Assembly (NCBI RefSeq): GCF_003852405.1
Contig: NZ_QAJM01000005.1
Coordinates: 1 to 37,464, forward strand
Length of the DNA stretch: 37,464 nt
Reading direction: 5' to 3'
DNA from: Pseudomonas sp. KBW05
GTDB taxonomy: Bacteria; Pseudomonadota; Gammaproteobacteria; Pseudomonadales; Pseudomonadaceae
The notes under the pieces were generated by a model. It was not told where the DNA came from. It saw only the letters and a program-made list of their open reading frames with translations, and ran no database searches. Made by a program: the position numbers and the translations under genes. This document shows, piece by piece, positions 22,546 through 35,586 of the stretch (positions are counted from its first letter, which is position 1; each line of letters opens with the position of its first letter).

Positions 22546-23484
22546 TCAATCGTGACCCGCACCGGCCTTGAAGCTCGACGGGTTGATCCCGAACTGCTTG
22601 CGAAACGCCGTCGCAAAATGGCTGGCATTCGCGTACCCCAGGTCCGATGCCACCCGCATCACCGACGCCTCGCCTTCCATCAGGCGACTGCGCGCCTGGG
22701 CCATGCGTGCTTGCTGGAATACGCCGTACACGCTGTTGGCAAACAACTGGCGAAAGCCCCGCGTCAATTTCGGCTGGCTCATCCCGGCCTCCCGCGCCAG
22801 CGCTGGCAAGCTGGGCGCCTTGCCCAGGTCCGCGAGCAAATACTCGCGGGCGCGCAACAGGCGTTGGCGGTCGAGGGGGCTGAGGCGGCAGGTGCAGGCG
22901 AGGTTGCGCCGGGCTTGGAGGAACAGGCTGACCAACGTGACGCTCTGGCCGTACAACCACAGGCTGCTGCGCGGCTGGGACAGGTCCATGGCGTTGCACA
23001 ACAGGTGCGCGGTGGCGCTCATTTCGCCGCTGCGGTAGCCGTCGAGGAAGCAATGCTCACAGGCCAGCGCACTGCCCAGGGTCGGATCAATCTCCACGTC
23101 CCACTGGGCCAGCAACTGCGGGTTGATCATCACCGTGATGTTGTCGATCTCACCCTGCTGGTGATACAGGCCCTCGCGGCTGCGACCGAAACTGATACTG
23201 CCGGCGCCTTCGTTGATCGCATGACGCGTGTGCCGGCGGCCGTCGTGGAAGCTGCAATGGGCCTTGCCCTTGAGGCGGTGGGTGAAGCTGAAGTGGATGC
23301 GCTCGCTGTCGTCCTGCAACGGCAGCTCCACCGCCTGCGCAAACGTGCTTTGCCAGCGCACGATGTCCAGCCCGCCGTGCAAGGTCACGCGGGTGACCCG
23401 GCACTGATTGCCGGGGCCGAATTCGCCGCGATAGCCGTTGGCAATAATCTGCGAGACCGGCGTGGGCGCCTGAACAGCTGACAT
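22546..23484 (-). CDS. AraC-family regulator of siderophore uptake (PchR/YbtA-like)
   Basis: A 312-residue regulator from ATG 23484 (AGGGAG about 9 bases upstream). The frame remains open to 23565, but that extension runs through the Fur box. The N-terminal half is a cupin-like effector domain (LKGKAHCSFHDGRRHTRHAINEGAGSISFGRS...). The C-terminal AraC domain has 'LPALAREAGMSQPKLTRGFRQLF' and 'VMRVASDLGYANASHFATAFRKQFG'. The shape and setting are those of PchR and YbtA, which bind an iron-loaded siderophore and activate receptor and transport genes. It is divergent from a TonB receptor, with a Fur box and a 33-bp conserved element between them. I infer that it activates the three box-bearing promoters of this locus. 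Confidence 0.9.
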   Translation of the reverse strand: MSAVQAPTPVSQIIANGYRGEFGPGNQCRVTRVTLHGGLDIVRWQSTFAQAVELPLQDDSERIHFSFTHRLKGKAHCSFHDGRRHTRHAINEGAGSISFGRSREGLYHQQGEIDNITVMINPQLLAQWDVEIDPTLGSALACEHCFLDGYRSGEMSATAHLLCNAMDLSQPRSSLWLYGQSVTLVSLFLQARRNLACTCRLSPLDRQRLLRAREYLLADLGKAPSLPALAREAGMSQPKLTRGFRQLFANSVYGVFQQARMAQARSRLMEGEASVMRVASDLGYANASHFATAFRKQFGINPSSFKAGAGHD

Positions 23485-23505
23485 CGTTGAATCTCCCTGC
23501 TGACC

Positions 23506-23538
23506 GGATACGGCTCGAATCAGACCACATCGGGGTAG
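23506..23538 (+). promoter_or_regulatory. Conserved 33-bp AraC-type box, copy A (receptor promoter)
   Basis: One of three equal-length elements in this locus. Invariant bases among the copies are AT at positions 3-4, CGG at 6-8, GAA at 12-14, GAC at 18-20, A at 24 and GGGTAG at 28-33. This copy is 22/33 identical to the one at 32018 and 20/33 to the one at 31961. A -10-like TAGCAT lies 21 bases downstream (23560-23565), placing GGGTAG at about -35, where an activator would touch RNA polymerase. Confidence 0.7.
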
Positions 23539-23544
23539 AGTCGC

Positions 23545-23563
23545 GCAATTGATAATCACTAGC
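23545..23563. promoter_or_regulatory. Fur box between regulator and receptor
   Basis: The stretch around AATTGATAATCACTAGC matches about 14 of 19 positions of the Fur consensus. It overlaps the -10-like TAGCAT of the rightward receptor promoter and also lies upstream of the leftward regulator. Ferric-uptake repression of both genes is expected. Confidence 0.7.
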
Positions 23564-23612
23564 ATTTTGGCTGTTATCGCGACTCCCCAAAATCCTCAGC
23601 CAAGGCCCCATC

Positions 23613-25715
23613 ATGTCGACTCGCCGAATCGCGCAAAGTAGTTACACTATAACAATAGCCATCAGTTTGACACTCTGTCATCACGCCTACGCCGACACGC
23701 CCGCCGAAGCGGTGCAACTGCCCGCCTCCACCGTCACCGCACGCATGACACAGGAAGACCCCAAGGACGTGCCCATCAGCCTCAGCGTGATCAGCGGCGA
23801 ACAGTTGCGCGTGCAACGCCTGGACACCCTGGAAAGCGCCCTGCGCAACACCGCCGGGGTCAGCGTCAACTCGTCCGGTGGGCCGAATGACTTCAACGTG
23901 CTGATCCGTGGCGTGGGCTCGCTGTACCAGATGTCGATGGATGACAGCTCCGTCGCGTTCAACATTGATGGCGTGCCGGTGTCGTCGCGCAGCCTGGGGT
24001 TCGAGACGCTGGACGTGGAGCGCATCGAAGTGCTCAAGGGCCCGCAAGGCACGCTGTCCGGGGCGATCGGCCAGGCCGGCGCGGTGAACATCACCACCCG
24101 CCAGCCGACCCGCGAACTGCAAGGTTACGTGCGCGGCGAAGTCGGCCAGCAAGGCCAGTTCCTCAGCGAAGGGGCGATCGGTGGCCCGCTCAGTGACCAG
24201 CTCAGCGGGCGCCTGGCCGTGCGCAGTGCGGGCTACGACAGCTGGATCGACAACGACCAGAACAACCACCCGCTGACCAAGCCGCGCAACGAAGCCTTCC
24301 GTGGCAGCCTGCTGTGGGACGTCAACGACGACACCCACGTGCTGTTCAGCGCCGAGCGGCAAAAGACCAAACGCGCCACCAACTCCCTGGTGCTGCGCCC
24401 CTACGGCAGCGACCCGAGCCTGGACCTCAGCCCCGGCCTGTTCGATGACAACTACAAGACCACCGAGCGTTATGCGATCAAGCTCGATCACGATTTCGCC
24501 AACAGTCGCCTGACCTCCACCACCGCCACCAGCACCGCCGACTTCGAAGGCCTGATCGCCTACGACAGCAAGCTGATGGGCGCCCTCTACGGCACCCCGA
24601 GCGAGTTCTGGGTGGTGGATAAATCCTTCGAGCGCAGCTGGAGCCAGGACGTGCACCTGAGCGCCCTGCCCGACGCCGACGTGTTCTGGGTCACCGGTCT
24701 CGCCGCCACACGCAACGAGCGCAGCTACGACACGCCGCGCAATACCTACGGCACCTCCGGGGCGAAGTTCCGCGATTTCACCACGACCACCTATGCGGGC
24801 TACGGCGAAGCCACCTTCCCGCTGACCGAGCGCCTGAAGTTGACCACCGGCTACCGCCATTCCTGGGACCGCAAGACCTACGACGGGCAGTATTTCGCCG
24901 GCAGCGATGCGGTCAACGATTCGCGCAAACTCACCGACCACTACGGCACCGGCCGTGCAGCCCTGAGCTACGCCATCAGCCCGCAGACCAATGTCTATGT
25001 GCAGTTGGCGCGGGGCTATAAGTCCGGAGGTTTCAATGACTACGCCTCGCAGGTCAGTGACAGCCAACCGTACAAGGCCGCCGTCAGCAAAACTGCCGAG
25101 CTGGGCTTCAAGAGCGAGACCGCCGACCGCCGTGGCAGCCTCAATGGCGCGCTGTTCTTCACCCGCGTCCACGACGACCACCTGCTCGGCTACGATGCCG
25201 CCACCTTTGCCACCAACGCGTTCAACGCCGACACCCGCACCCGGGGTGCCGAACTGGAAGGCAGTTGGCACTTCGACCACGGCCTGACCCTGGCCGCCAG
25301 CGCCACCTACCTCGACGCCAAGATCACCAGCGCGGTGCTGGGCATCCAGGCCGGTGACGTCAACGCCGGCAACCGCACCCCGGACGTGCCGCGCTGGAGC
25401 GGTAACTTCAACGCCAGCTGGAAACACCCGCTGGGCAGCGTCGCCAGCCTGGGCGACACCACGCTGAACACCAGCCTCAACTACCACCTGGTGGGCGAAC
25501 GCGCGGCCGATCCGCAGAACCATTTCAACCTGGACAACTACGAGAAACTCGACCTGCGCGCCGGCCTCGAAAGCCGCTTCGGCGAGGTGTATGCCTTCGC
25601 CGACAACCTGCTGAACCAGACCTACGACACCTACGGTTTCTACAGCGACCCGGTGGCCTATGGCGCCCCCGCGCGCCGCCGCACCCTGGGCGTCGGCTAC
25701 ACCTATCAGTTCTGA
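23613..25715 (+). CDS. TonB-dependent siderophore receptor (FyuA-like), copy 1
   Basis: A 700-residue receptor with a signal peptide (about residues 1-27, ending CHHAYA), a TonB-box region near VQLPASTVTA, a plug with VLIRGVGSLYQMSMDDSS, GVPV and VERIEVLKGPQGTL, and a barrel ending YQF. Sequence style matches FyuA, the yersiniabactin receptor. It is closely paralogous to the convergent receptor at 25752: both contain QMSMDD, GYVRGEVGQQGQF and LTTGLRHSWDRKTY-like blocks. In the plug, where many receptors have GRNS, this one reads LSGAIGQAGAVN. Control by Fur and the neighbouring AraC regulator is indicated by the shared upstream region. Ligand: probably a thiazoline/phenolate-type ferric siderophore, by analogy only. 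Confidence 0.95.
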   Translation: MSTRRIAQSSYTITIAISLTLCHHAYADTPAEAVQLPASTVTARMTQEDPKDVPISLSVISGEQLRVQRLDTLESALRNTAGVSVNSSGGPNDFNVLIRGVGSLYQMSMDDSSVAFNIDGVPVSSRSLGFETLDVERIEVLKGPQGTLSGAIGQAGAVNITTRQPTRELQGYVRGEVGQQGQFLSEGAIGGPLSDQLSGRLAVRSAGYDSWIDNDQNNHPLTKPRNEAFRGSLLWDVNDDTHVLFSAERQKTKRATNSLVLRPYGSDPSLDLSPGLFDDNYKTTERYAIKLDHDFANSRLTSTTATSTADFEGLIAYDSKLMGALYGTPSEFWVVDKSFERSWSQDVHLSALPDADVFWVTGLAATRNERSYDTPRNTYGTSGAKFRDFTTTTYAGYGEATFPLTERLKLTTGYRHSWDRKTYDGQYFAGSDAVNDSRKLTDHYGTGRAALSYAISPQTNVYVQLARGYKSGGFNDYASQVSDSQPYKAAVSKTAELGFKSETADRRGSLNGALFFTRVHDDHLLGYDAATFATNAFNADTRTRGAELEGSWHFDHGLTLAASATYLDAKITSAVLGIQAGDVNAGNRTPDVPRWSGNFNASWKHPLGSVASLGDTTLNTSLNYHLVGERAADPQNHFNLDNYEKLDLRAGLESRFGEVYAFADNLLNQTYDTYGFYSDPVAYGAPARRRTLGVGYTYQF

Positions 25716-25722
25716 ACAAACC

Positions 25723-25746
25723 GGGGAGCCGGCATGCCGACTCCCC
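25723..25746. terminator. Hairpin between convergent receptor genes
   Basis: GGGGAG (25723-25728) pairs with CTCCCC (25741-25746), and the interior CGGC/GCCG extends the stem around one mismatch. It sits in the 36-base gap between the two receptor stop codons and may end both transcripts. There is no clear T-tract on either side, so intrinsic termination is uncertain. Confidence 0.45.
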
Positions 25747-25751
25747 GCGCC

Positions 25752-27929
25752 TCAAAACGCGTAGCTGTAACCCACCCCCGCCGAGCGCCCGCGTGCCGGC
25801 ATGCCGGTCAGCACCGCGTCGGTCGAGTAGGTGCCGTACAGGTCATAACGCGCATCCAGCAGGTTATCGCCCCACAGGTAGACTTCCGAACCGCCGCTTT
25901 CCAGGCCCAGGTGCAAATCCAGCTTGGCGTAGCCCTTGAGGTCATAGTGGTTTTGCGCGTCGGCCGGGCGGTTTTTCTGCACGCGGTAGTTGAGCAAGGT
26001 GTTCAGGCGTGGCGCGGGCAGGCCCAGCAGGTTCGGCAAGTCGCGCGTCCACGCCACACTGAAATTGCCACTCCACAACGGCACATCCGGAACCCGGCTG
26101 CCAGCGGCCACATCGCCGCCGGACACGCCCGGCGCATCGGACGTCACCACCGCGTTGGTGTAGCTCAGGGCACTGCCCAGGGTCAGTTCATCGTTCACAT
26201 GCCAGGTCGTGGATAGCTCGGCGCCCTTGCTGCGGGTGTCAGCGTTCACTGCGCTGACGGCCAGGCTGGTGAAGTCGTAACCGAGCAAATGATCATCGGC
26301 GACACGGGTGATAAACAACGCGCCTTCCACGCTCAGCGCACCACCGGCACTTTCATGCTTGAAGCCCAGTTCGGCGGCATTCACCTTCGCTGCTTTGTAC
26401 GGCTCGCTGTCCTTGACCGTGGTGGCGTAATCGTTGAACCCCGCCGATTTGTAGCCGCGCGACACCACGGCATACAGGTTGGTCTGCGCGGTCAGCGCAT
26501 AGGCCAAGGCCACGCGGCCGGTGCTGTAGTTGTCCTGCAGCTGGCGGCTGTCGCCGGTCACCGCGCCGCCACTGGCGTAGTCGGCGCCGTAGGTCTTGCG
26601 GTCCCAACTGTGGCGCAGGCCGGTGGTGAGCTTCCAGCGCTCGGCAAGCGGCACGGTGATCTCGCCATAGACCGCGTAGCTGTTGGTACTGAAATCGCGC
26701 TGTTGCCAGGAGCCGTTGGTGAAGTTGTCCGAATCGAAACTGCGCTCGGACCGCGCCAGGTTCATCCCGCCGACCCAGAACACCTCGGCGTCCGGCAAGG
26801 AGCCCAGGCGCAGGTCCTGGCTCCACACCTGCTCGCGGGCCGTGTCTTCGATCAAGTACTCGAACGGCGCACCGTAGAGCGCGCGGGTGATGTTGCGGTC
26901 GTAGCCCTTGACCGCATTGAAATCGGTGCGGGTATAAGCGCTGATCGAGGTGAGGCGCGCCTGCGCCAGGTCGTGGTTGAGTTCAAAGGAGTAGCGCTCG
27001 TTGGTCTTCTGGTTACCGTCAAACACACCGGGGGTGTAGTCCAGGCTCGGGCGGCTGCCGAACGGGCGCAGCATTTCCAGCCCGGCGTAATGCTCGGCGC
27101 GTTGACGCTCGGCCATCAGCAGGCCAGTGGTGCCGCTGTCGTTGTCCCACAGCAGGCTGCCGCGCAGGGCCAGGTCGCGGGGACGGGTCAACGGGTCGCC
27201 GTCCTGTTGGTCATCGACCCAATTGTCAAAGCCTGAGCGGCGCACGGCGATGCGCCCGGCCAAGGTGTCGGTCAATGGCCCGCCCACCGCGCCCTCGGTC
27301 ATGAACTGGCCTTGTTGGCCGACTTCGCCGCGCACATAGCCTTGCCCATCGCGGGTCGGCTTGCGCGTGGTGACGTTGATCGCGCCGGCTTCGCTGTTGC
27401 GCCCCAGCAACGTGCCCTGGGGGCCCTTGAGCACTTCCACTTGCTGCACATCCAGGGTGGCCATGGCCGCGTTGCGCACCGACATCGGCACGCCGTCCAC
27501 ATTCAGCTGCACCGAGCCGTCATCCATGCTCATCTGGTTCAGCGAACCGACACCGCGGATGCGCACGTTGGCATCGTTGGCGCCGCCCCACGAATTGACG
27601 TCCACTCCCGGCGTGGCGCGCAACGCGTCTTCGAGGGTGCGCAGGCGCCGGGTCTCCAGGGCCTGGCCGTCGAGCACCGACAGGCCGAACGGGATGTCCT
27701 TCGCGCTCTCCTGATGCAGCCGGGCGCTGACCGTCAGCGGCGCCAGCTCGAGGGTCTCGGGGCTCGGCAGGTAGTCGGCGGCAAACGCGCTGCACATCTG
27801 GCTGGACAGGGCCAGGGCCAAGGCTTGGGTGAGCACGTTGGCGCGCCAGCCTGGCGGGCGTTGCAGGGGTTTGAGGGTCACTTGGGCAGGCATGGAAAAC
27901 TCCAGGGATAAGGGTTTCAGGACATTCAT
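25752..27929 (-). CDS. TonB-dependent siderophore receptor (FyuA-like), copy 2
   Basis: A 725-residue receptor, last gene of the leftward ATPase-permease-receptor operon. The ATG at 27929 overlaps the permease stop (ATGA). An alternative ATG at 27893 has GGAG 8 bases upstream and gives a more ordinary signal peptide, so either start is possible. A hydrophobic signal ending SAFAA precedes a TonB-box-like LELAPLTVSA. The plug has VRIRGVGSLNQMSMDDGS and VEVLKGPQGTLLGRNSEAGAINV, and the barrel ends SYAF. It is homologous over its whole length to the receptor at 23613. Encoding the receptor behind its inner-membrane ABC partners implies that its ligand is handled by them. Confidence 0.94.
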   Translation of the reverse strand: MNVLKPLSLEFSMPAQVTLKPLQRPPGWRANVLTQALALALSSQMCSAFAADYLPSPETLELAPLTVSARLHQESAKDIPFGLSVLDGQALETRRLRTLEDALRATPGVDVNSWGGANDANVRIRGVGSLNQMSMDDGSVQLNVDGVPMSVRNAAMATLDVQQVEVLKGPQGTLLGRNSEAGAINVTTRKPTRDGQGYVRGEVGQQGQFMTEGAVGGPLTDTLAGRIAVRRSGFDNWVDDQQDGDPLTRPRDLALRGSLLWDNDSGTTGLLMAERQRAEHYAGLEMLRPFGSRPSLDYTPGVFDGNQKTNERYSFELNHDLAQARLTSISAYTRTDFNAVKGYDRNITRALYGAPFEYLIEDTAREQVWSQDLRLGSLPDAEVFWVGGMNLARSERSFDSDNFTNGSWQQRDFSTNSYAVYGEITVPLAERWKLTTGLRHSWDRKTYGADYASGGAVTGDSRQLQDNYSTGRVALAYALTAQTNLYAVVSRGYKSAGFNDYATTVKDSEPYKAAKVNAAELGFKHESAGGALSVEGALFITRVADDHLLGYDFTSLAVSAVNADTRSKGAELSTTWHVNDELTLGSALSYTNAVVTSDAPGVSGGDVAAGSRVPDVPLWSGNFSVAWTRDLPNLLGLPAPRLNTLLNYRVQKNRPADAQNHYDLKGYAKLDLHLGLESGGSEVYLWGDNLLDARYDLYGTYSTDAVLTGMPARGRSAGVGYSYAF

Positions 27930-30900
27930 CGCGGTGTTCCCCAGCGCTGACGCGCCTGGGTCACCACGGCTTCCGAGGGCGCGCCGAGCAGGCCCTGGAT
28001 CGAAACGGGCCATCCCTGGCCAGTGCGCACGGCGGCAGTCATTGCCAGCAGTTGTTCGGGGCTTTGACTGGCGACCCAGTCGAGGCTGGCCAACGGTGCA
28101 TAGAACGCCGACCAGCCCTGTGAACGGGCGCTGGCCAGGGTGCCGACGGGCTCGCCGTCGCTGGCCAAGGCGCGGGTCAGGTCGTCAGCCATCAGCGTGA
28201 TCAAGGCGGCGCGGGCCTGTGGACCGTCCACCTCGCCCACACAGAGCAAGCCCACGGCGCCGGCCACGCCGTGACTGAGCCACACATGCCCCGGTTGTTC
28301 GCGCAGGTCGCTGGCACTGAGCAGTTGCTGGCGGGCCAACAGTTCGGCGATCTGCGCGCGCCGTGCCCAGCGCCCGACGCCACTGGCAGCCACGTCCCAG
28401 TGAGGTGCCTGGGCCAACAGCAGATGCGCGTTGCTCAGGCGACTGGCGCCCATGCCGCTGGGCCACTGGCTCAATTCGCTGACGATCGGGCTTGCGCCCA
28501 AGCGCCGGGCCACGCACGCGGTCATCGCCGTGAGGTCGTCGCGCACTTCGCGGGCGGTGTGCTGGCGGCTGGCATCGGCCAGCACCTGCACACCGTCAAG
28601 GTGTTGGACCGAGGCCAGTGGCGTCAGTTGGTAAGCGAAGTCCAGGGGATGCTGGCTGTGGCCGCTGAACGGCTGCCCATCCAGGCTGATCGTCCATTGC
28701 CAATCCCCGGCTGGGGCCACGGCTTGCGCCGCCACGGCCGCGCCCATCGGCAGCGCCGGCGTGAGCGCGGGCAACCTAGTTTCCGTGCGTTGCGAGGGCG
28801 CGCGTACGGCGCGCTCCGGGTCCAGGCCCAGGCGCGGCAGCACCCGGCGCGCCTCCAGCCATGTGGCCTGGGGTGTCAGCCACAGGCCGTCACCGTCGGC
28901 GGGCCAACCACTGGCGCTGAGGGTCCAGTGCAACGTCACGCTGCACCCTGCCACCGCACACTTACCCAAGGGGATGCGCAGGTGGTCGCTGGCCTGCTCG
29001 ACGGCGACCGCTTGGCCCATGACGCGGGCGCCGGTCACGTGCAACCCCGGCGGCAGTTCGGCGTCCAGATGGCCGTTGGCGGCGATTACTCGGTCCAGGC
29101 GCCACAGCCCTTCTACTTGGCGACGCAGGCTGTCGATCTGCACCTGCACCTGCCCACCGGCGACCTGCCACGCGCCGGCATCGGCCAGCCAATGCTGTTC
29201 CCAGGCGGCACGTTCGGCCAATTCGTCGGCGCTGGAGCGGTAATCGCCCTGCTCCACCAGATGGCGATGCAGCAACACACCGCTGCCGAGCAGGCCCAGC
29301 ACACCCAGCGCCAGCAGCGCCGCGGGCACACGTCCGATTCCACGGGGCGCGAGCAAGGCCGCCAGCGCGACCATCACCGCACACCCCGCCAGCTTCCAGC
29401 CCGCCAGCGTCGCCAGGTACGGCCACCACGGCGCCCAGCCGGTCAACGCCGACAACGCCACATGGGCGGGGATGGCCATTTCATAGGGCGGGTAACTCAC
29501 CAGCCCCAGTTCATGGTTGAGCACCAGGAAAAACGTCAGCAGCATCGACGTCGCGTAAGCCAGGCCGGCGCGGCGGATCAGCGTGTGCACCAACAGCGTC
29601 AGCATTGCCAATTCCAGCAACGGCGGTGCGAACACCAGCAGTTGATAGGTCAGCACAAACCCCGGGGCCAGGCTTTGCGGTGCCGCAAGCGCACTGATCA
29701 GCAGGCTGGCGGCGCCCGGCACCAGTGCCAGCAGCAACGTCGCCGCCGCCACACACAGCACCCGCCCGAAGAGGCGCACCCACACCGGGGCCGGCGTGGC
29801 GTGCAGCATCGCGACCAGGCCTTCGACGTCATCGCGTCGGCACACCAGCCCCACCAGCGCCGCCAATACAAACGCCAGCACTAGGAACAGCGCGCTGGAC
29901 AGCAACGGCAAGCTCAAGTCCGCCCTCGGCACCATCGGCCCACGGGCGTGCCACACCCCATGAACAAAGCCGCTGAGCACGCCCATCACCATCAGCAGAA
30001 CCAGGGCCAGCCACCACACCTTGCGGGCGAAGACCTGGCGTGACTGCCAACGGGCTTCGTACCACAACGCCCGAGGCCAGTGGCTGCGCAGCACGGGGCC
30101 GAGCACCGCGGTACCCTCGGCCAAGCGCATCGGAGGCTCTGCCAGTACAGCGCCGGAACGACGCCCCATCAGGCCCTCGCGCGTGGTGCGCGCCAATACC
30201 CAGGCCAACAGCACCAATGGCAGCGCACACCACAGGCTGCGGTTGAGCCAGAAGCCTGGGGTCAAGGCCAACAGGGCCTCGGATTTCTGCGCCGCCGTCC
30301 AGGTTTCCACCTGGGCCTGGGCAAAGGTAAACAACGACGGATCGAGGCTGGCTGCCAACAATGGGTTGATCTGCCCGCCCTTGAGCACCACCACCGCAAA
30401 CATCCACAACAGCATCAGCACGGTGGCCAACGCAAACGGCGCCGCCAACCCGCGACTGCGCAACGCCAGCAGATAATACAACGCGCCGATGCCGGTGCTC
30501 ACCGGCAACAGCAAGGCCACCCAGGCGAACCCCAGCGCCGACCATGCCGGCGCGCCGATGCTCGCCGCCGGCACCCAACCCAGCCAAGCGAGGATCGGGC
30601 TCAGTAAAAAGCCCACCACCAAGGCACTGGCGAGCAAACCGCCGACCACCGCCGCACCGATAAAGCGTCCCCACAACAGCGCCGGCAGCGACACCGGCAA
30701 GGCCAGCAGTACTTCTTCCAACTGCGCCTTGCGGTCGCGCAGGGCCGGCTGGGCAAACACCCAGGCCCAGGCAAAAAACAGGAAGAACATGCAACCGCAG
30801 GACATCAGGTAGATCAGGCTCGGGGCGTTGCGCGGGATCTCACTGGCGCCCATTTTCTGTACGTAATCGGCGTTGGTCAGGGACATCAGCAAGTAGCCGG

Positions 30901-30994
30901 CCAGGCCGAGGAACACCAGCAAGGGAATTCCGCTGCGCAGCCCGGCACGCAGTTCCACCCAGGCTTCGCGGCGCATCAGGGCAAAGTTGTTCAT
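27926..30994 (-). CDS. ABC-2-type permease fused to a degenerate M1-aminopeptidase-like domain
   Basis: A 1022-residue inner-membrane protein. Residues 1 to about 600 hold roughly twelve hydrophobic helices in two ABC-2-like halves (second half from about 320). From about 605 a soluble, presumably periplasmic domain follows. The domain resembles the M1 part of 'ABC permease/M1 aminopeptidase' proteins: LGASPIVSELSQWP near 840 mimics the GPYPxxxLxVxExP element, and GHVWLSHGVAG near 905 mimics WLxEGLA. However, the zinc motif HExxH is replaced by ELLAR (884-888) and the third ligand Glu by Ser/His (907-908), so peptidase activity should be lost. The known fusions are also longer as I recall them. 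ATGA overlaps join it to the ATPase upstream and the receptor downstream. Role unknown: siderophore handling or export in the periplasm is a guess. Confidence 0.82.
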   Translation of the reverse strand: MNNFALMRREAWVELRAGLRSGIPLLVFLGLAGYLLMSLTNADYVQKMGASEIPRNAPSLIYLMSCGCMFFLFFAWAWVFAQPALRDRKAQLEEVLLALPVSLPALLWGRFIGAAVVGGLLASALVVGFLLSPILAWLGWVPAASIGAPAWSALGFAWVALLLPVSTGIGALYYLLALRSRGLAAPFALATVLMLLWMFAVVVLKGGQINPLLAASLDPSLFTFAQAQVETWTAAQKSEALLALTPGFWLNRSLWCALPLVLLAWVLARTTREGLMGRRSGAVLAEPPMRLAEGTAVLGPVLRSHWPRALWYEARWQSRQVFARKVWWLALVLLMVMGVLSGFVHGVWHARGPMVPRADLSLPLLSSALFLVLAFVLAALVGLVCRRDDVEGLVAMLHATPAPVWVRLFGRVLCVAAATLLLALVPGAASLLISALAAPQSLAPGFVLTYQLLVFAPPLLELAMLTLLVHTLIRRAGLAYATSMLLTFFLVLNHELGLVSYPPYEMAIPAHVALSALTGWAPWWPYLATLAGWKLAGCAVMVALAALLAPRGIGRVPAALLALGVLGLLGSGVLLHRHLVEQGDYRSSADELAERAAWEQHWLADAGAWQVAGGQVQVQIDSLRRQVEGLWRLDRVIAANGHLDAELPPGLHVTGARVMGQAVAVEQASDHLRIPLGKCAVAGCSVTLHWTLSASGWPADGDGLWLTPQATWLEARRVLPRLGLDPERAVRAPSQRTETRLPALTPALPMGAAVAAQAVAPAGDWQWTISLDGQPFSGHSQHPLDFAYQLTPLASVQHLDGVQVLADASRQHTAREVRDDLTAMTACVARRLGASPIVSELSQWPSGMGASRLSNAHLLLAQAPHWDVAASGVGRWARRAQIAELLARQQLLSASDLREQPGHVWLSHGVAGAVGLLCVGEVDGPQARAALITLMADDLTRALASDGEPVGTLASARSQGWSAFYAPLASLDWVASQSPEQLLAMTAAVRTGQGWPVSIQGLLGAPSEAVVTQARQRWGTPR

Positions 30995-31875
30995 GCGTCG
31001 GGCGCCTCGCCGGCCTGGGCCAAGGCCAGGTAATAGATATCTTCCAGGCGCGGTGCGTGGGGCGTGAAACGCGGATCAAGGGGCCGCTCACCGTGCACGA
31101 TCACCCGGCTGCCTTGCGGGCTGGCCGCCACATGCAACGCGGCTGGCAAGGGTTCGCCACGGCCAAACGGCGCTTGCCACAGGCGCCCCTGCTCGGCCGC
31201 CAGCAGGTCCGCCGGGCGGCCTTCGACGATGATCCGCCCAGCGGCCAGGACGGCCAGGCGACTGCACAGGTTCTCGACGTCTTCGACGATATGGGTCGAC
31301 AGCAGCACAATCGACTCGGCGGCAACGTCCGCCAGCACTCGGTGGAAACGGTTGCGTTCCGCTGGATCGAGGCCCGCCGTCGGCTCATCGACAATCAACA
31401 AGCGCGGCGCGCCCACCAGTGCCATGGCAATGCCAAAGCGGCGCAGCATGCCGCCCGAATACGTCGCCAGCGCACGGTGTGCGGCGTCTTGCAGGTTGAC
31501 CTTGCTCAGCAGGCCTTCAATTTCCTCGCGGCGTTGCCGGGCATCGGTGCGGCCCTTGAGCCAGGCGAAGCGGTCGAGCAGGTCACGCGCGCTCACGCCG
31601 GGATAAGCGCCCAGTTGCTGCGGTAGATAACCGAGGCGCTGGCGCAGGTGATTGCCGTCAGCCAGCACGTCCACGCCATCCAGATGAATACTGCCGGCGT
31701 CGGCGGGTTGCAGCGTCGCCAAGGTGCGCATCAGGCTGCTTTTGCCGGCGCCATTGGGCCCCAGCAAGCCATACATGCCGGGGCCCACGCTCAGGTCCAC
31801 GCCGCGCAGCGCTTCGACGCCGTTGTTGTAGCGCTTGCGCAGACCGCGCACTTGCAAACCTGAATCGACTGCCAT
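30991..31875 (-). CDS. ABC-2-type transporter ATPase
   Basis: A 294-residue stand-alone ATPase (CcmA/ABC-2 class) that should drive the 1022-residue permease. Start ATG 31875 is chosen because GGAG lies 8 bases upstream; the frame is open to 31917 without a comparable site. Walker A GPNGAGKSS carries Ser where Thr is usual, which is tolerated. The Q-loop (YLPQQLGAYPG), signature YSGGMLRR, Walker B LLIVDEPTAGLDP and H-loop (LLSTHIVED) are intact. The segment LLGPNGAGKSSLMRTLATLQP is typical of ABC-2 exporters. First gene of a three-gene leftward operon ending in a siderophore receptor; a conserved 33-bp box lies about 85 bases upstream. Confidence 0.92.
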   Translation of the reverse strand: MAVDSGLQVRGLRKRYNNGVEALRGVDLSVGPGMYGLLGPNGAGKSSLMRTLATLQPADAGSIHLDGVDVLADGNHLRQRLGYLPQQLGAYPGVSARDLLDRFAWLKGRTDARQRREEIEGLLSKVNLQDAAHRALATYSGGMLRRFGIAMALVGAPRLLIVDEPTAGLDPAERNRFHRVLADVAAESIVLLSTHIVEDVENLCSRLAVLAAGRIIVEGRPADLLAAEQGRLWQAPFGRGEPLPAALHVAASPQGSRVIVHGERPLDPRFTPHAPRLEDIYYLALAQAGEAPDA

Positions 31876-31945
31876 CTGCCACTCCAAGGACACCGGTTGG
31901 GGGAAATACCTGCCCACGAAACAGGCAGCCTGGAACGGTAGCCAG

Positions 31946-31959
31946 GGCCACCCGTGGCC
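31946..31959. repeat. GGCCAC-CC-GTGGCC palindrome in the leftward promoter
   Basis: Perfect 6-bp arms with a two-base centre, lying between box copy M and the presumed -10 of the leftward operon. It could be an extra protein site or a small hairpin. Other promoters of the locus lack it. Confidence 0.4.
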
Positions 31960-31960
31960 T

Positions 31961-31993
31961 CTACCCGATTCAAGTCATTTTCCAACCGTATCG
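31961..31993 (-). promoter_or_regulatory. Conserved 33-bp AraC-type box, copy M (leftward operon)
   Basis: Read on the minus strand, this element begins GATACGG at positions 2-8 and ends in GGGTAG at 28-33. It keeps the GAA, GAC and single-A landmarks at exactly the spacing of copies A and B. The match to copy A continues two bases further (AG). A poor -10-like TACCGT lies 20 bases on. It faces the ATPase-permease-receptor operon. Confidence 0.65.
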
Positions 31994-32017
31994 CGCCGCT
32001 GGCGGGGTTGGGATGTC

Positions 32018-32050
32018 GAATGCGGGGCGAATTGGACTCGATGCGGGTAG
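32018..32050 (+). promoter_or_regulatory. Conserved 33-bp AraC-type box, copy B (ABC-pair promoter)
   Basis: Rightward copy of the element, ungapped, 22/33 identical to copy A. Its two halves contain ATGCGGGG (32020) and ATGCGGGT (32041), a direct repeat with a 21-base period, as expected for AraC proteins contacting two turns of DNA. TAGCAT, the same -10-like hexamer as at copy A, lies 19 bases downstream (32070-32075). No Fur box is visible here. Copies M and B diverge, with 24 bases between them. Confidence 0.7.
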
Positions 32051-32107
32051 CCGACAAATCTGGAGTGACTAGCATCGTTTGCCCCGCAGAAGACCTACGG
32101 AACACCG

Positions 32108-33835
32108 ATGACAACTGCCCTGGACACCCTGAAACGCCCGGTCAACCCGCTGATTCGCCTGGGCGTGCTGTTTGCCGCCGTTGGCGCGCTGGTCAACCTG
32201 GTGCCCTTCATCGGCCTGACCGAATTGGCCCGGCTGCTCCTGGCCGGCAACGCCGCGCGTCACACCTTGTGGTCATGGGCCGCGCTGGTGGTGATCGCCC
32301 TGAGCCTGGGCTGGGTGGCCAACGGCGTGGCACTGTGGCTCACCCACGTCGCCGACCATCGCCTGCAAGCCGGCTTGCGCGACGCGATGGTGCGCAAACT
32401 CGGGCGCGTGCCCCTTGGCTGGTACAGCGACACCACGTCCGGCGCGGTGCGCAAAGTGGTGCAGGATGACCTCGAAGACCTGCACCACCTCGTCGCCCAT
32501 CACGCCGTGGAACTCACCGCCGCTGTCGTCACGCCCCTCGCCGGGCTGGCGTGGCTGGCCAGCCTCAACGGCCACCTGGTGGTGCTGGCGGTGCTGACCC
32601 TGCCGGTCTATGCGCTGGCCTACGCCCTGATGATGCGCGGCTTCGGCAGCAAGATGCAGTTGCTGGACCAGAGCATGACCCGGGTCAGCGCGGCGATTGT
32701 CGAGTTCGTCCACGGGATCGCGGTGGTCAAGGCCTTCGGGCGCGGCGGCCAGGCCCATCGCAGCTATCAGCAGGCGGTCAGCCAGTTCAGCCGGCAGTAC
32801 GCCGGTTGGGTGCGCCCGTTGCTACGCCTTGAGGCGTTGTCGTCAATGGCCCTGAGCGTGCCGGTGATTCTGCTGGTCAGCCTGGGCGTGGGCAGCCTGC
32901 TGTTGGCGCGGGGCTGGGTCACGCCGCTGGAGTTGTTCGCCGAAACCCTGGTGGCGGTGGTGATCCCGCAATCGTTATTGGTGATCAACCAGAGCCTGAC
33001 CGCGCAACGCACCGCCCTGGCGGCTGCCGCACGCATCGAAGCCCTGCTGGATATCGACGAACTGCCAAGCCCGACGGCCTGCCAATCGCCCGAAGGCAGT
33101 GCCATCACCTTCGACAACGTGCAGTTTGGCTATGACCCCGCCCACTTGATCCTCGATGGCATCACCCTGCATTGCCCGGCGGGCACCGTCACCGCGCTGG
33201 TGGGGGCATCGGGCGCCGGCAAGTCGACCCTGGCCAAGTTGGTGCCGCGCTTTCACGACGTCACCGCTGGCCGCGTAGTGGTCGGGGGTGTCGATGTGCG
33301 CCAGATCGACCCGCAGCAGCTGTACCGGCACGTCGGCTTTGTGCTGCAAGACGCGCAACTGGTGCACGGCAGCGTGGCCGACAACCTGCGCCTGGGCCGC
33401 CCGCAGGCCAGCGACGAAGACATGCAGGCGGCCGCGCGTGCGGCGCAGATCCACGCGCGTATCCAGGCGCTGCCCCGTGGCTATCAGTCGGTGATTGGCG
33501 AGGACGCGATATTCTCCGGCGGCGAAGCCCAGCGACTGTCCATCGCCCGCACGCTGCTGGCCGATACGCCGGTGCTGATCCTCGACGAAGCCACCTCCCA
33601 CGCCGATCCAGAATCCGAAGCGCTGATCCAGGACGCGTTGTCGGCGCTGGCCAGAGGGCGCACGGTGCTGGTGATCGCCCATCGCCTGGCAAGTATCCGT
33701 GGCGTCGATCAAATCGTCGTCCTCGATCATGGCCGCGTGATCGAGCGCGGCCGTCACCCTGACCTGCTGCACGCCGATGGCGCCTACGCGCGCTTGTGGC
33801 GCGCCACCACCCCCGACCTGGAGATGCCCTTGTGA
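32108..33835 (+). CDS. Fused permease-ATPase of a ferric-siderophore ABC transporter (YbtP/PchH-like)
   Basis: A 575-residue half-transporter with an N-terminal six-helix exporter-fold membrane domain (about 1-310) and a C-terminal ATPase: Walker A GASGAGKST at about 366-374, signature FSGGEAQR, Walker B VLILDEATS and H-loop IAHRLA. The D-loop reads SHADPESE instead of the usual SALD. I recall a similar change in siderophore-importing pairs of this class (YbtP/YbtQ, IrtA/IrtB). The next gene, overlapping by GTGA, encodes the partner, so a heterodimer is expected. Despite the exporter fold, known relatives import iron-siderophore complexes across the inner membrane. Two FyuA-like receptors and a PchR-like regulator next door support that reading. 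Confidence 0.9.
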   Translation: MTTALDTLKRPVNPLIRLGVLFAAVGALVNLVPFIGLTELARLLLAGNAARHTLWSWAALVVIALSLGWVANGVALWLTHVADHRLQAGLRDAMVRKLGRVPLGWYSDTTSGAVRKVVQDDLEDLHHLVAHHAVELTAAVVTPLAGLAWLASLNGHLVVLAVLTLPVYALAYALMMRGFGSKMQLLDQSMTRVSAAIVEFVHGIAVVKAFGRGGQAHRSYQQAVSQFSRQYAGWVRPLLRLEALSSMALSVPVILLVSLGVGSLLLARGWVTPLELFAETLVAVVIPQSLLVINQSLTAQRTALAAAARIEALLDIDELPSPTACQSPEGSAITFDNVQFGYDPAHLILDGITLHCPAGTVTALVGASGAGKSTLAKLVPRFHDVTAGRVVVGGVDVRQIDPQQLYRHVGFVLQDAQLVHGSVADNLRLGRPQASDEDMQAAARAAQIHARIQALPRGYQSVIGEDAIFSGGEAQRLSIARTLLADTPVLILDEATSHADPESEALIQDALSALARGRTVLVIAHRLASIRGVDQIVVLDHGRVIERGRHPDLLHADGAYARLWRATTPDLEMPL

Positions 33836-35586
33836 TCCGCAGCCTGCTCACCCTGTTGGGCCCGGCCCATGCCCCGCGCCTTTACCGTTACCTCGCCTGG
33901 CTGGTGACCAGCGCCGTGCTGCAAGGCCTGGCCGTCGCGTTGTTGGTGCCGATCCTGCGCACGCTGTTCGCCGGCGACTTGCCGACGGCTCTCGCCTGGC
34001 TGTGTGCCCTGGCGGCGATGGTGGTCCTGACGTGCATCGCCCACTATCAGCAGGCGATGCAAGGTTTTGCCCTGGCACTGCTGGTGCTGACGACCCTGCA
34101 TGATCGCCTTGGCCAACACCTGATGCGCCTGCCCCTGGGCTGGTTCAACACGGAAAAGGTCGGGCGCCTGTCGCGCAGCGCCACCAGTGGCACGTTGATG
34201 GTCACCGGTCTGTTTGCCCATTACCTGGGGCCGGTGGTGTGCGGCGTGGTGGTACCCGCCACGGTGGCCCTGACGCTGTTTGTGTTCGACTGGCGCCTGG
34301 GCCTGACCGCCGTGCTCTGTGCGCCGCTGATCTACGCCACCCATCACTGGTCGGCCAACGCCATTGCGGCCAATGATCAGCGCGTCGAAGCCGCCGCGAC
34401 TGTGGCCGGCAACCGTGTGGTGGAGTTCGCCCGCTACCAGCCGGTGCTGCGCGCCTTTGGCCAGGCGCGGGGCGGCTATGCACCGTTGCACGCGGCCAAC
34501 CTTGCGCAGAAACACGCCGGCGGCTCGATGCTGGCGCAGACCTTTCCCAAATTGCTCGCCGGTGGCCTGACGGTGCAACTGGCCTTCGCCCTGCTGGTAG
34601 GCGTCGGCATTGCCCTGGCGGCAACCGGTGCAATCGACGCCATCCAACTGGTCGCACTGCTGGCCCTGGCCGCGCGTTTCGTCGGCCCGCTGGCCGAAGC
34701 TGCCGCACGCAGTGGCCTGTTGCGCATGGCCGGCAACGACCTCGATCAACTGGTGAGTATCCTGCGCGAGCCCGGCCTGCCGGAACCGGCAAGCAGTCAG
34801 CCACTGACGGCGCCCGGCAGCCTAGCGTTTGAACACGTGAGCTTTGCCTATCCCAGTGGCCCCACGGTGCTCAAGGACCTGACCTTCAACGTCCCGGCCC
34901 ATTCCATGACCGCCATCGTCGGCGCCTCGGGCTCGGGTAAAACCACCATCACCCGTCTGTTGATGCGCTTCTTCGATGCCAGCGAGGGCCAGGTCAAAGT
35001 GGGCGGCGTGGATGTGCGCGAGCTGTCCAATGCCGCGTTGATGGCGCAACTGTCCCTGGTGATGCAGGACGTGTACCTGTTCGACGACAGCCTGGAAGCC
35101 AACATCCGCGTCGGTAGCCCCGATGCCAGTGCACAGCAGGTGGCCGAAGCGGCGCGCCTGGCCGGGGTCGATGAAATCGTCGCACGCCTGCCCCAAGGCT
35201 GGCACACCCCCGTGGGCGAAGGCGGCGCCAGCCTCTCCGGCGGTGAACGCCAGCGCGTATCCCTGGCCAGGGCCCTGCTCAAGCGCGCGCCGATCCTGTT
35301 ACTGGACGAAGCCACCGCAGCGCTCGATCCGCAGAACGACGCCTACGTGCAAGCCGCTATCCGCACGCTGATGCACAACGCCACGGTGCTGGTGATTGCC
35401 CATCGCCTGCCGACCATCATGGCGGCCGACCAGATCCTGGTGTTGGATGAAGGGGGGTTGGTGGAGTCTGGTACTCATGCGCAGTTGCTGGGGCGGAACG
35501 GCAGGTATGCGGGGTTCTGGAAGGAGCGTCAGCGGGCGGGGGGATGGCGGCTGGAACGAGCGACGCAAGGCGCTGACCGTGGGTAA
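33832..35586 (+). CDS. Fused permease-ATPase of a ferric-siderophore ABC transporter, partner (YbtQ/PchI-like)
   Basis: A 584-residue half-transporter. The start is taken as GTG 33832, overlapping the previous stop (GTGA), with GGAG 8 bases upstream. An upstream ATG in frame at 33796 lies inside the preceding gene. The membrane domain (about 1-310) is followed by an ATPase with Walker A GASGSGKTT (about 364-372), signature LSGGERQR (about 469), Walker B ILLLDEATAALDP and H-loop IAHRLP. Its D-loop is conventional (AALD), unlike the partner's SHAD, so the two ATP sites may not be equivalent. Its stop is five bases from that of the convergent dehydrogenase gene. Confidence 0.9.
   Translation: MIRSLLTLLGPAHAPRLYRYLAWLVTSAVLQGLAVALLVPILRTLFAGDLPTALAWLCALAAMVVLTCIAHYQQAMQGFALALLVLTTLHDRLGQHLMRLPLGWFNTEKVGRLSRSATSGTLMVTGLFAHYLGPVVCGVVVPATVALTLFVFDWRLGLTAVLCAPLIYATHHWSANAIAANDQRVEAAATVAGNRVVEFARYQPVLRAFGQARGGYAPLHAANLAQKHAGGSMLAQTFPKLLAGGLTVQLAFALLVGVGIALAATGAIDAIQLVALLALAARFVGPLAEAAARSGLLRMAGNDLDQLVSILREPGLPEPASSQPLTAPGSLAFEHVSFAYPSGPTVLKDLTFNVPAHSMTAIVGASGSGKTTITRLLMRFFDASEGQVKVGGVDVRELSNAALMAQLSLVMQDVYLFDDSLEANIRVGSPDASAQQVAEAARLAGVDEIVARLPQGWHTPVGEGGASLSGGERQRVSLARALLKRAPILLLDEATAALDPQNDAYVQAAIRTLMHNATVLVIAHRLPTIMAADQILVLDEGGLVESGTHAQLLGRNGRYAGFWKERQRAGGWRLERATQGADRG

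Follow-up and report, generated by a model that had tools for sequence, protein, structure and literature searches.

AraC occupies tandem direct half-sites with a 21-bp period at araI1-I2, the downstream half overlapping the -35; YbtA, from the yersiniabactin system, is a regulator of the AraC kind, and pyochelin promoters carry a PchR-box of about 32 bp. For the mupirochelin (mch) siderophore locus of NCIMB 10586, whose published operon is mchABCDEFG, the main text of PMC10080011 reports that an mchR deletion abolished mupirochelin production and left mchB, mchQ and mchS repressed, and that mupirochelin supernatant raises mchQ and mchS, not mchR, the mchS response requiring MchQ. We analysed a stretch of 37,464 nucleotides from the soil bacterium Pseudomonas sp. 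KBW05 (contig NZ_QAJM01000005.1, positions 1 to 37,464; hereafter the window), which contains the uptake-only form of the mch locus (mchR, mchS, mchOPQ and mchCD, without the synthetase genes mchAB) and, within it, three 33-bp boxes. Judging from the sequence, these boxes are very probably (we estimate about 90%) the sites at which MchR, an activator of the AraC type whose gene lies at 22546-23484, finds its operators.

Three boxes and their distribution

Box A (23506..23538, plus strand) lies in the mchR-mchS intergenic region, box B (31961..31993, minus strand) in the mchOPQ promoter, and box C (32018..32050, plus strand) before mchCD here and before mchAB onward in producers. An earlier note on this DNA had aligned the three without gaps, counted 18 of 33 bases in common and assigned each to a different transport transcript; coordinates and count proved exact on rechecking, and the targets are correct. 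Pairwise identities amount to 21 (A-B), 22 (A-C) and 21 (B-C) of 33 positions. In the genome of 6,517,586 bases, the 18-position pattern matched exactly three times, at boxes A, B and C, as compared to about 0.0002 matches expected at 60% G+C, a figure that ignores that the pattern was read off these very boxes. One extra site appeared at 3 mismatches, which we regard as noise because a reversed control gave five sites at up to 3 mismatches. A sequence-only profile built from 28 distinct ortholog boxes (R1), for which 150 of 1939 first-look candidates were scored, likewise returned only boxes A, B and C from this genome at expectation values (E) up to 5; in three other mch genomes, it also gave one weak partial match in each of two (E about 1.1-1.2). 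Equally good matches scattered elsewhere, for which the earlier note had proposed to look, were thus found in the KBW05 genome neither with the pattern nor with the profile, and we reject further regulon members elsewhere in it.

Conservation was assessed in 22 distinct loci, comprising the window, 16 loci from a genus search (L054-L069) and five of the eight from a further contig search (L010, L012-L015). Two of the eight (L009, L011) were left out because their contigs, judged by equal length, are already represented by L054 and L056, and L016 because its AraC protein is 28% identical and mch genes are missing. A matrix made from the window's three boxes recovered 65 of the 66 possible sites (28 distinct sequences) and no other site of at least 14 bits, with all three boxes present in 21 loci. 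The earlier note had made retention of the box in ortholog promoters a check on its claim, and this holds: the sole missing site is box A of L068, whose target gene mchS is gone too, with no remnant seen. Mean column conservation is 0.96, 0.97 and 0.92 for boxes A, B and C, whereas the 40 upstream bases, which at box A include the mchR start, have 0.86, 0.54 and 0.61. The matrix applied to the distant relative G578 (below) has a low background: scanned over the 22 mch loci (377 kb) and 252 kb of other flanks, it gave nothing of at least 12 bits besides the boxes, and random sequences of 38.9 kb contained 0.05 sites of at least 14 bits each over 40 trials, with a maximum of 21 bits. One locus, L069 (G359), has a split mchR and its receptors and mchA in pieces, reflecting decay or assembly errors, with all three boxes intact; its boxes were counted, and it was excluded from the tree described below.

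Across 399 Pseudomonas genomes, MchR (E ≤ 1e-60) was found in 17, and a relaxed box pattern allowing no mismatch occurred in the identical set of 17; neither a reversed control nor a pattern shifted by one extra N matched any genome. All 44 matches of the relaxed pattern fell inside the mch locus; as these 17 loci have 50 known boxes, the pattern missed 6 of them. The corresponding Fisher value of 3e-30 overstates the case for MchR itself, as it ignores both genome relatedness and the linkage of box and locus.

This distribution also bears on whether the three promoters resemble each other by chance or are duplicates without function. The two receptors are paralogs, so their promoters could have been duplicated along with them. 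Against this, the boxes are conserved in 22 loci amid diverging flanks, each of the three box types has its own sequence outside the common positions, and the genome holds no other copies. Chance is ruled out by the three exact genome matches, all in this locus, and by the confinement of the relaxed pattern to mch loci, and we consider the explanation as a whole scarcely conceivable.

Half-site repeat and promoter geometry

Each box consists of two half-sites in tandem direct repeat, with a 21-bp period (z = 4.6; p = 0.0005, the smallest value possible with 2000 shuffles, or about 0.01 after correction for 20 periods); the second-best period is 10 (z = 2.9). In the left half-site, GATnCGG, each fixed base is present in 26-28 of the 28 distinct boxes. 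The right one, GATnCGGGTAG, is looser (G 18, A 28, T 21, C 18, G 28, G 28, G 27, T 26, A 25 and G 28 of 28), the loose positions being G23 (18/28), T25 (21/28) and C27 (18/28) of the box. As in class II operators, the two direct half-sites are spaced about two helix turns apart, and a cognate AraC/XylS protein (HTH_18 plus HTH_AraC, 22546-23565) is encoded nearby.

A more distant locus points the same way. Among 194 genomes searched, G578, from another family of the same order, is the only one besides KBW05 with an MchR homolog at E ≤ 1e-40; it harbors an mch-like locus whose MchR homolog is 40-45% identical. Its two best matrix sites (15.3 and 14.2 bits), identified by the matrix scan together with their position, flank mchR on both sides, the first between mchR and an open reading frame (ORF) of 2189 amino acids in the mchA position, the second before the mchO homolog and overlapping the called start of the mchR ORF. 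They read GATCCGGG...GATTCGGG and GATTCGGG...GATTCGGG, 21 bp apart, with GATnCGGG repeated and the middle diverged. Retention of the halves alongside a diverged middle points to the half-sites as the probable contacts. As a search pattern on its own, GATnCGG-N14-GATnCGGG proved too loose and was rejected: at up to one mismatch it matched the KBW05 genome 15 times and the reversed control 15 times (27 versus 10 in G578), and without mismatch it gave four matches in G578, two of them its boxes, and one in KBW05, elsewhere than at the boxes.

At all 65 sites, a -10-like hexamer is located 19-21 nt 3' of the box, when one- or two-base variants are allowed. Box A is followed after 21 nt by TAGCAT (23560..23565, plus strand), and all 21 loci that have this box show TAGCA, TATCA or TAGCG at the same distance. 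Box B is followed after 20 nt by TACCGT (31935..31940, minus strand), the counterpart in all 22 loci being TACCGT or TATCGT at 20-21 nt, and box C after 19 nt by TAGCAT (32070..32075, plus strand), which is present at that distance in 21 loci and replaced by TACTAT in the remaining one. The earlier note had placed TAGCAT after boxes A and B; this stands for box A, whereas box B at 31961 has TACCGT and the second TAGCAT belongs to box C at 32018. With an assumed 17-bp spacer, the -35 would cover the last 2-4 bases of the box, a spacing inferred from the -10-like hexamers. By eye, this putative -35 is unlike TTGACA, as expected of an activator-dependent promoter.

Over the mchS -10, we noted a Fur-box-like sequence (23545..23563, plus strand; 14/19 to the consensus) that scores 14-15/19 in all 21 loci with box A, compared to a background of shuffled 50-mers with a mean of 8.5 and 95% and 99% points of 11 and 12. 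Promoter B has no Fur-like site (7-10/19, background level). Scores at promoter C range from 12 to 14/19 in the 16 producers; the six uptake-only loci score 10, 10, 12, 12, 12 and 13, the window (32051-32107) and its nearest relative L054 being at background level with 10/19. The difference between producers and uptake-only loci at C (p = 0.002, relatedness ignored) is not trustworthy, because the same test yields p = 0.006 at B, where there is no site and the values are background; in this comparison, only the low value shared by the window and L054 is telling.

MchR and its rivals

Provided that NCIMB 10586 shares the layout of the loci examined here, the published reporters mchB, mchQ and mchS sit behind boxes C, B and A, respectively. 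Of the check that the earlier note proposed on deletion of the regulator, the expression part is hence borne out in the ortholog, where loss of mchR represses one gene behind each promoter (PMC10080011, main text). Its reading of the local AraC protein as the ligand of the boxes is supported, with binding as a prediction.

We infer direct binding, the dimer, its ligand and the polymerase contact, and propose the following mechanism. Each box, with its two half-sites, would be read by an MchR dimer. The downstream half-site would overlap the poor -35, 19-21 bp before the conserved -10-like hexamer; given this overlap and spacing, MchR would activate by touching RNA polymerase. The ligand would be ferric mupirochelin imported through MchQ, and Fur would add a layer of repression at promoter A and, in producers, also at C. 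As mchAB and the other biosynthetic genes sought are gone here, the circuit would answer the mupirochelin of neighbours, which would raise mchS, mchOPQ and mchCD in KBW05.

Might the boxes instead be bound by a different regulator, be it another AraC protein, an extracytoplasmic function (ECF) sigma factor or Fur, with MchR acting indirectly? The pairing of MchR with the boxes is deduced from sequence, and the -10 is indeed covered by a Fur-like site at A and, in producers, at C. However, the Fur-like sequence is separate from the box, lies downstream of it and is at background level at B, and the 21-bp tandem layout suits AraC proteins. The genome encodes no other close MchR relative, the next best protein matching with E = 1.9e-10 and 33% identity over residues 232-332, and the relaxed box is absent from all 382 genus genomes without mchR. 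We thus judge a different regulator to be unlikely and favor MchR as the protein that reads the boxes.

Another possibility is that the box is of the PchR type and MchR simply a PchR with a PchR operator. The main text of PMC10080011 likens MchR to PchR in its mode of action, and four pch-like clusters encode an AraC protein that is 38-39% identical to MchR over residues 198-333. These clusters (L134, L136, L138 and L140) were the ones with an MchR-like AraC protein in a set of ten thiazolinyl reductase loci from genomes that lack mchR; their AraC gene adjoins ORFs of 1385-1441 and 1773-1872 amino acids and is near two mchC/mchD-like ABC proteins (one in L140). None of the four contains a site of at least 11 bits, compared to 25-48 bits for the mch boxes, and the relaxed box is absent from their genomes. 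Identity with the PchR-box was therefore rejected on the lack of MchR-type boxes in four clusters named pch-like from their gene layout, the known PchR-box sequence not being used, and we regard this explanation as very improbable. In the intergenic regions of these four clusters, repeated GAAAAGTC-like motifs were seen by eye, which are possibly the PchR-box.

Several observations weigh against MchR operators. L015 lacks mchS at its place yet retains box A, the weakest of its kind (28.7 bits). Box C is weaker in five of the six uptake-only loci, with 25-38 bits versus 39-45 bits in producers, by a matrix that leans to producers. Profile R1 did not report either G578 site at E up to 5, and in 183 kb of the ten thiazolinyl reductase loci one site of 14.3 bits turned up, inside a 2210-amino-acid ORF of L132, the only one of the ten with a site of at least 11 bits, so that such scores also arise by chance. 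Because box presence is tied to the whole locus, the 17/17 match cannot separate MchR from a co-travelling regulator, and genome relatedness makes this count weigh less than is apparent. Finally, as mchR is not induced by mupirochelin (PMC10080011, main text), nothing suggests that box A activates mchR.

The analysis supplies the likely operator of a published regulator and a sequence signature of the MchR regulon, which comprises three promoters, no further member having turned up in the genome. This makes MchR directly testable with short DNA fragments and a candidate sensor part for mupirochelin. It also offers a clean case in which siderophore users without synthesis retain the ligand switch.

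The uptake-only locus, its origin and its counterparts

Genes in the window were named from the producer G374, whose gene order equals that of the published operon; the arrangement mchR-mchS, mchOPQ and mchCD is as in the main text of PMC10080011, the comparison being by order and domains, via G374. The mchR gene (minus strand) has HTH_18/HTH_AraC domains in 22546-23565, with the activator role published for its ortholog (PMC10080011, main text). Its true start is probably 23484, the ORF start at 23565 being too early: by eye, AGGGAG precedes 23484, and for most MchR orthologs the alignment begins at residue 26-28 of the long ORF (at residue 1 for L054, L055 and L009). With this start, box A falls in the mchR-mchS intergenic region. 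The first TonB-dependent receptor, mchS (23613..25715, plus strand), is assigned by domains, with position and name following the same main text; the second, mchQ (25752..28013, minus strand), has an uncertain start. mchP (27926..30994, minus strand) encodes what PMC10080011 calls a membrane protein, of 1022 amino acids, and returned no Pfam or NCBIfam match; MchP is 95% identical in the nearest and 72-82% in more distant mch loci. The ABC ATPase mchO (30991..31917, minus strand) has DrrA as its nearest model, below cut-off. Fused permease-ATPase ABC transporters are encoded by mchC (32108..33835, plus strand) and mchD (33796..35586, plus strand), 85% and 89% identical to their G374 counterparts.

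No homolog of mchA, mchB or mchE-G was found in the window, and no thiazolinyl reductase in the KBW05 genome, which has other synthetases (21 condensation domains). This reductase family occurs in 26 of the 399 genus genomes (22 over cut-off); among the 17 with mchR, it is present in the 12 of the producer type and in none of the five uptake-only ones, KBW05 included. The main text of PMC10080011 reports uptake-only clusters in 22 strains of the P. gessardii subgroup and in KBW05, and names one locus with mch genes and without mchR. It lists mchMN as retained in uptake-only clusters, while the pair retained in the window (32108-35586) is mchCD; this listing may be a slip in the text. Downstream of box C, 16 of the 22 distinct loci have an ORF that shares the start of the first synthetase gene; this ORF spans at least 1658 codons in 11, is broken in L069, and in L010, L012, L013 and L014 has only its first 159-438 codons inside the fetched stretch. 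The two synthetase genes of G374 encode condensation, AMP-binding, carrier, methyltransferase and thioesterase domains, and 3' of them lie mchC, mchD, a saccharopine-dehydrogenase-like protein and two methyltransferases.

In the two producers examined, G374 and G010, mchC comes after the 3' end of mchB. In L015 (Stutzerimonas stutzeri 24a13; mchR on the minus strand), at least 119 bases between box C (17861) and mchC (18093) are alignable to the mchB 3' end, a scar of synthetase loss. L055 and L056 match the last 12 bases of mchB at 11/12; the window does so at 5/12 ungapped, with a shifted CCTACGGAA visible by eye. In a tree of 21 loci, L015 and the producer L068 form one group (support 100), separate from the five remaining uptake-only loci; among these, together with L010, branching is weak (support 32-44). 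This position of L015 implies at least two losses of mchAB, provided that the uptake-only form was not transferred from one lineage to another. With each loss, promoter C came to lie before mchCD. In at least two lineages, mchAB thus appears to have been deleted and promoter C joined to mchCD, with a passage from self-sensing to sensing a foreign siderophore. That a self-sensing switch was rewired for eavesdropping at least twice, through mchAB loss and transfer of promoter C onto mchCD, with the MchR boxes kept and the Fur-like site at C decayed in the window's lineage, is a tentative scenario, to which we give somewhat less than even odds. If true, mchCD would respond to a foreign siderophore and be less tightly controlled by iron.

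Compared to known systems, the NCIMB 10586 locus has the same genes and arrangement (mchR, mchS, mchOPQ, mchCD) and an AraC activator of all three transcripts, but every DNA site in the main text of PMC10080011 is a Fur site: no MchR site appears there at any mention of box, promoter, binding site, operator or motif, though the supplements could hold one. Searches of the literature on mupirochelin and mchR found no other study of MchR, nor an AraC-type site for this locus, in agreement with the earlier note. PchR, in the relevant passages of PMC8477383, is similarly an AraC-type activator with a siderophore effector, and YbtA, in those of PMC11225919, regulates a siderophore locus through three repeat sequences as binding sites. 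The type of control is therefore ordinary and the regulator MchR already known; new, and not found described in the literature searched, are the operator, its repeat structure and the closed regulon of three promoters. In its layout, we take the MchR box to be equivalent to AraC at araI1-I2, from which it differs in the sequence of the half-site.

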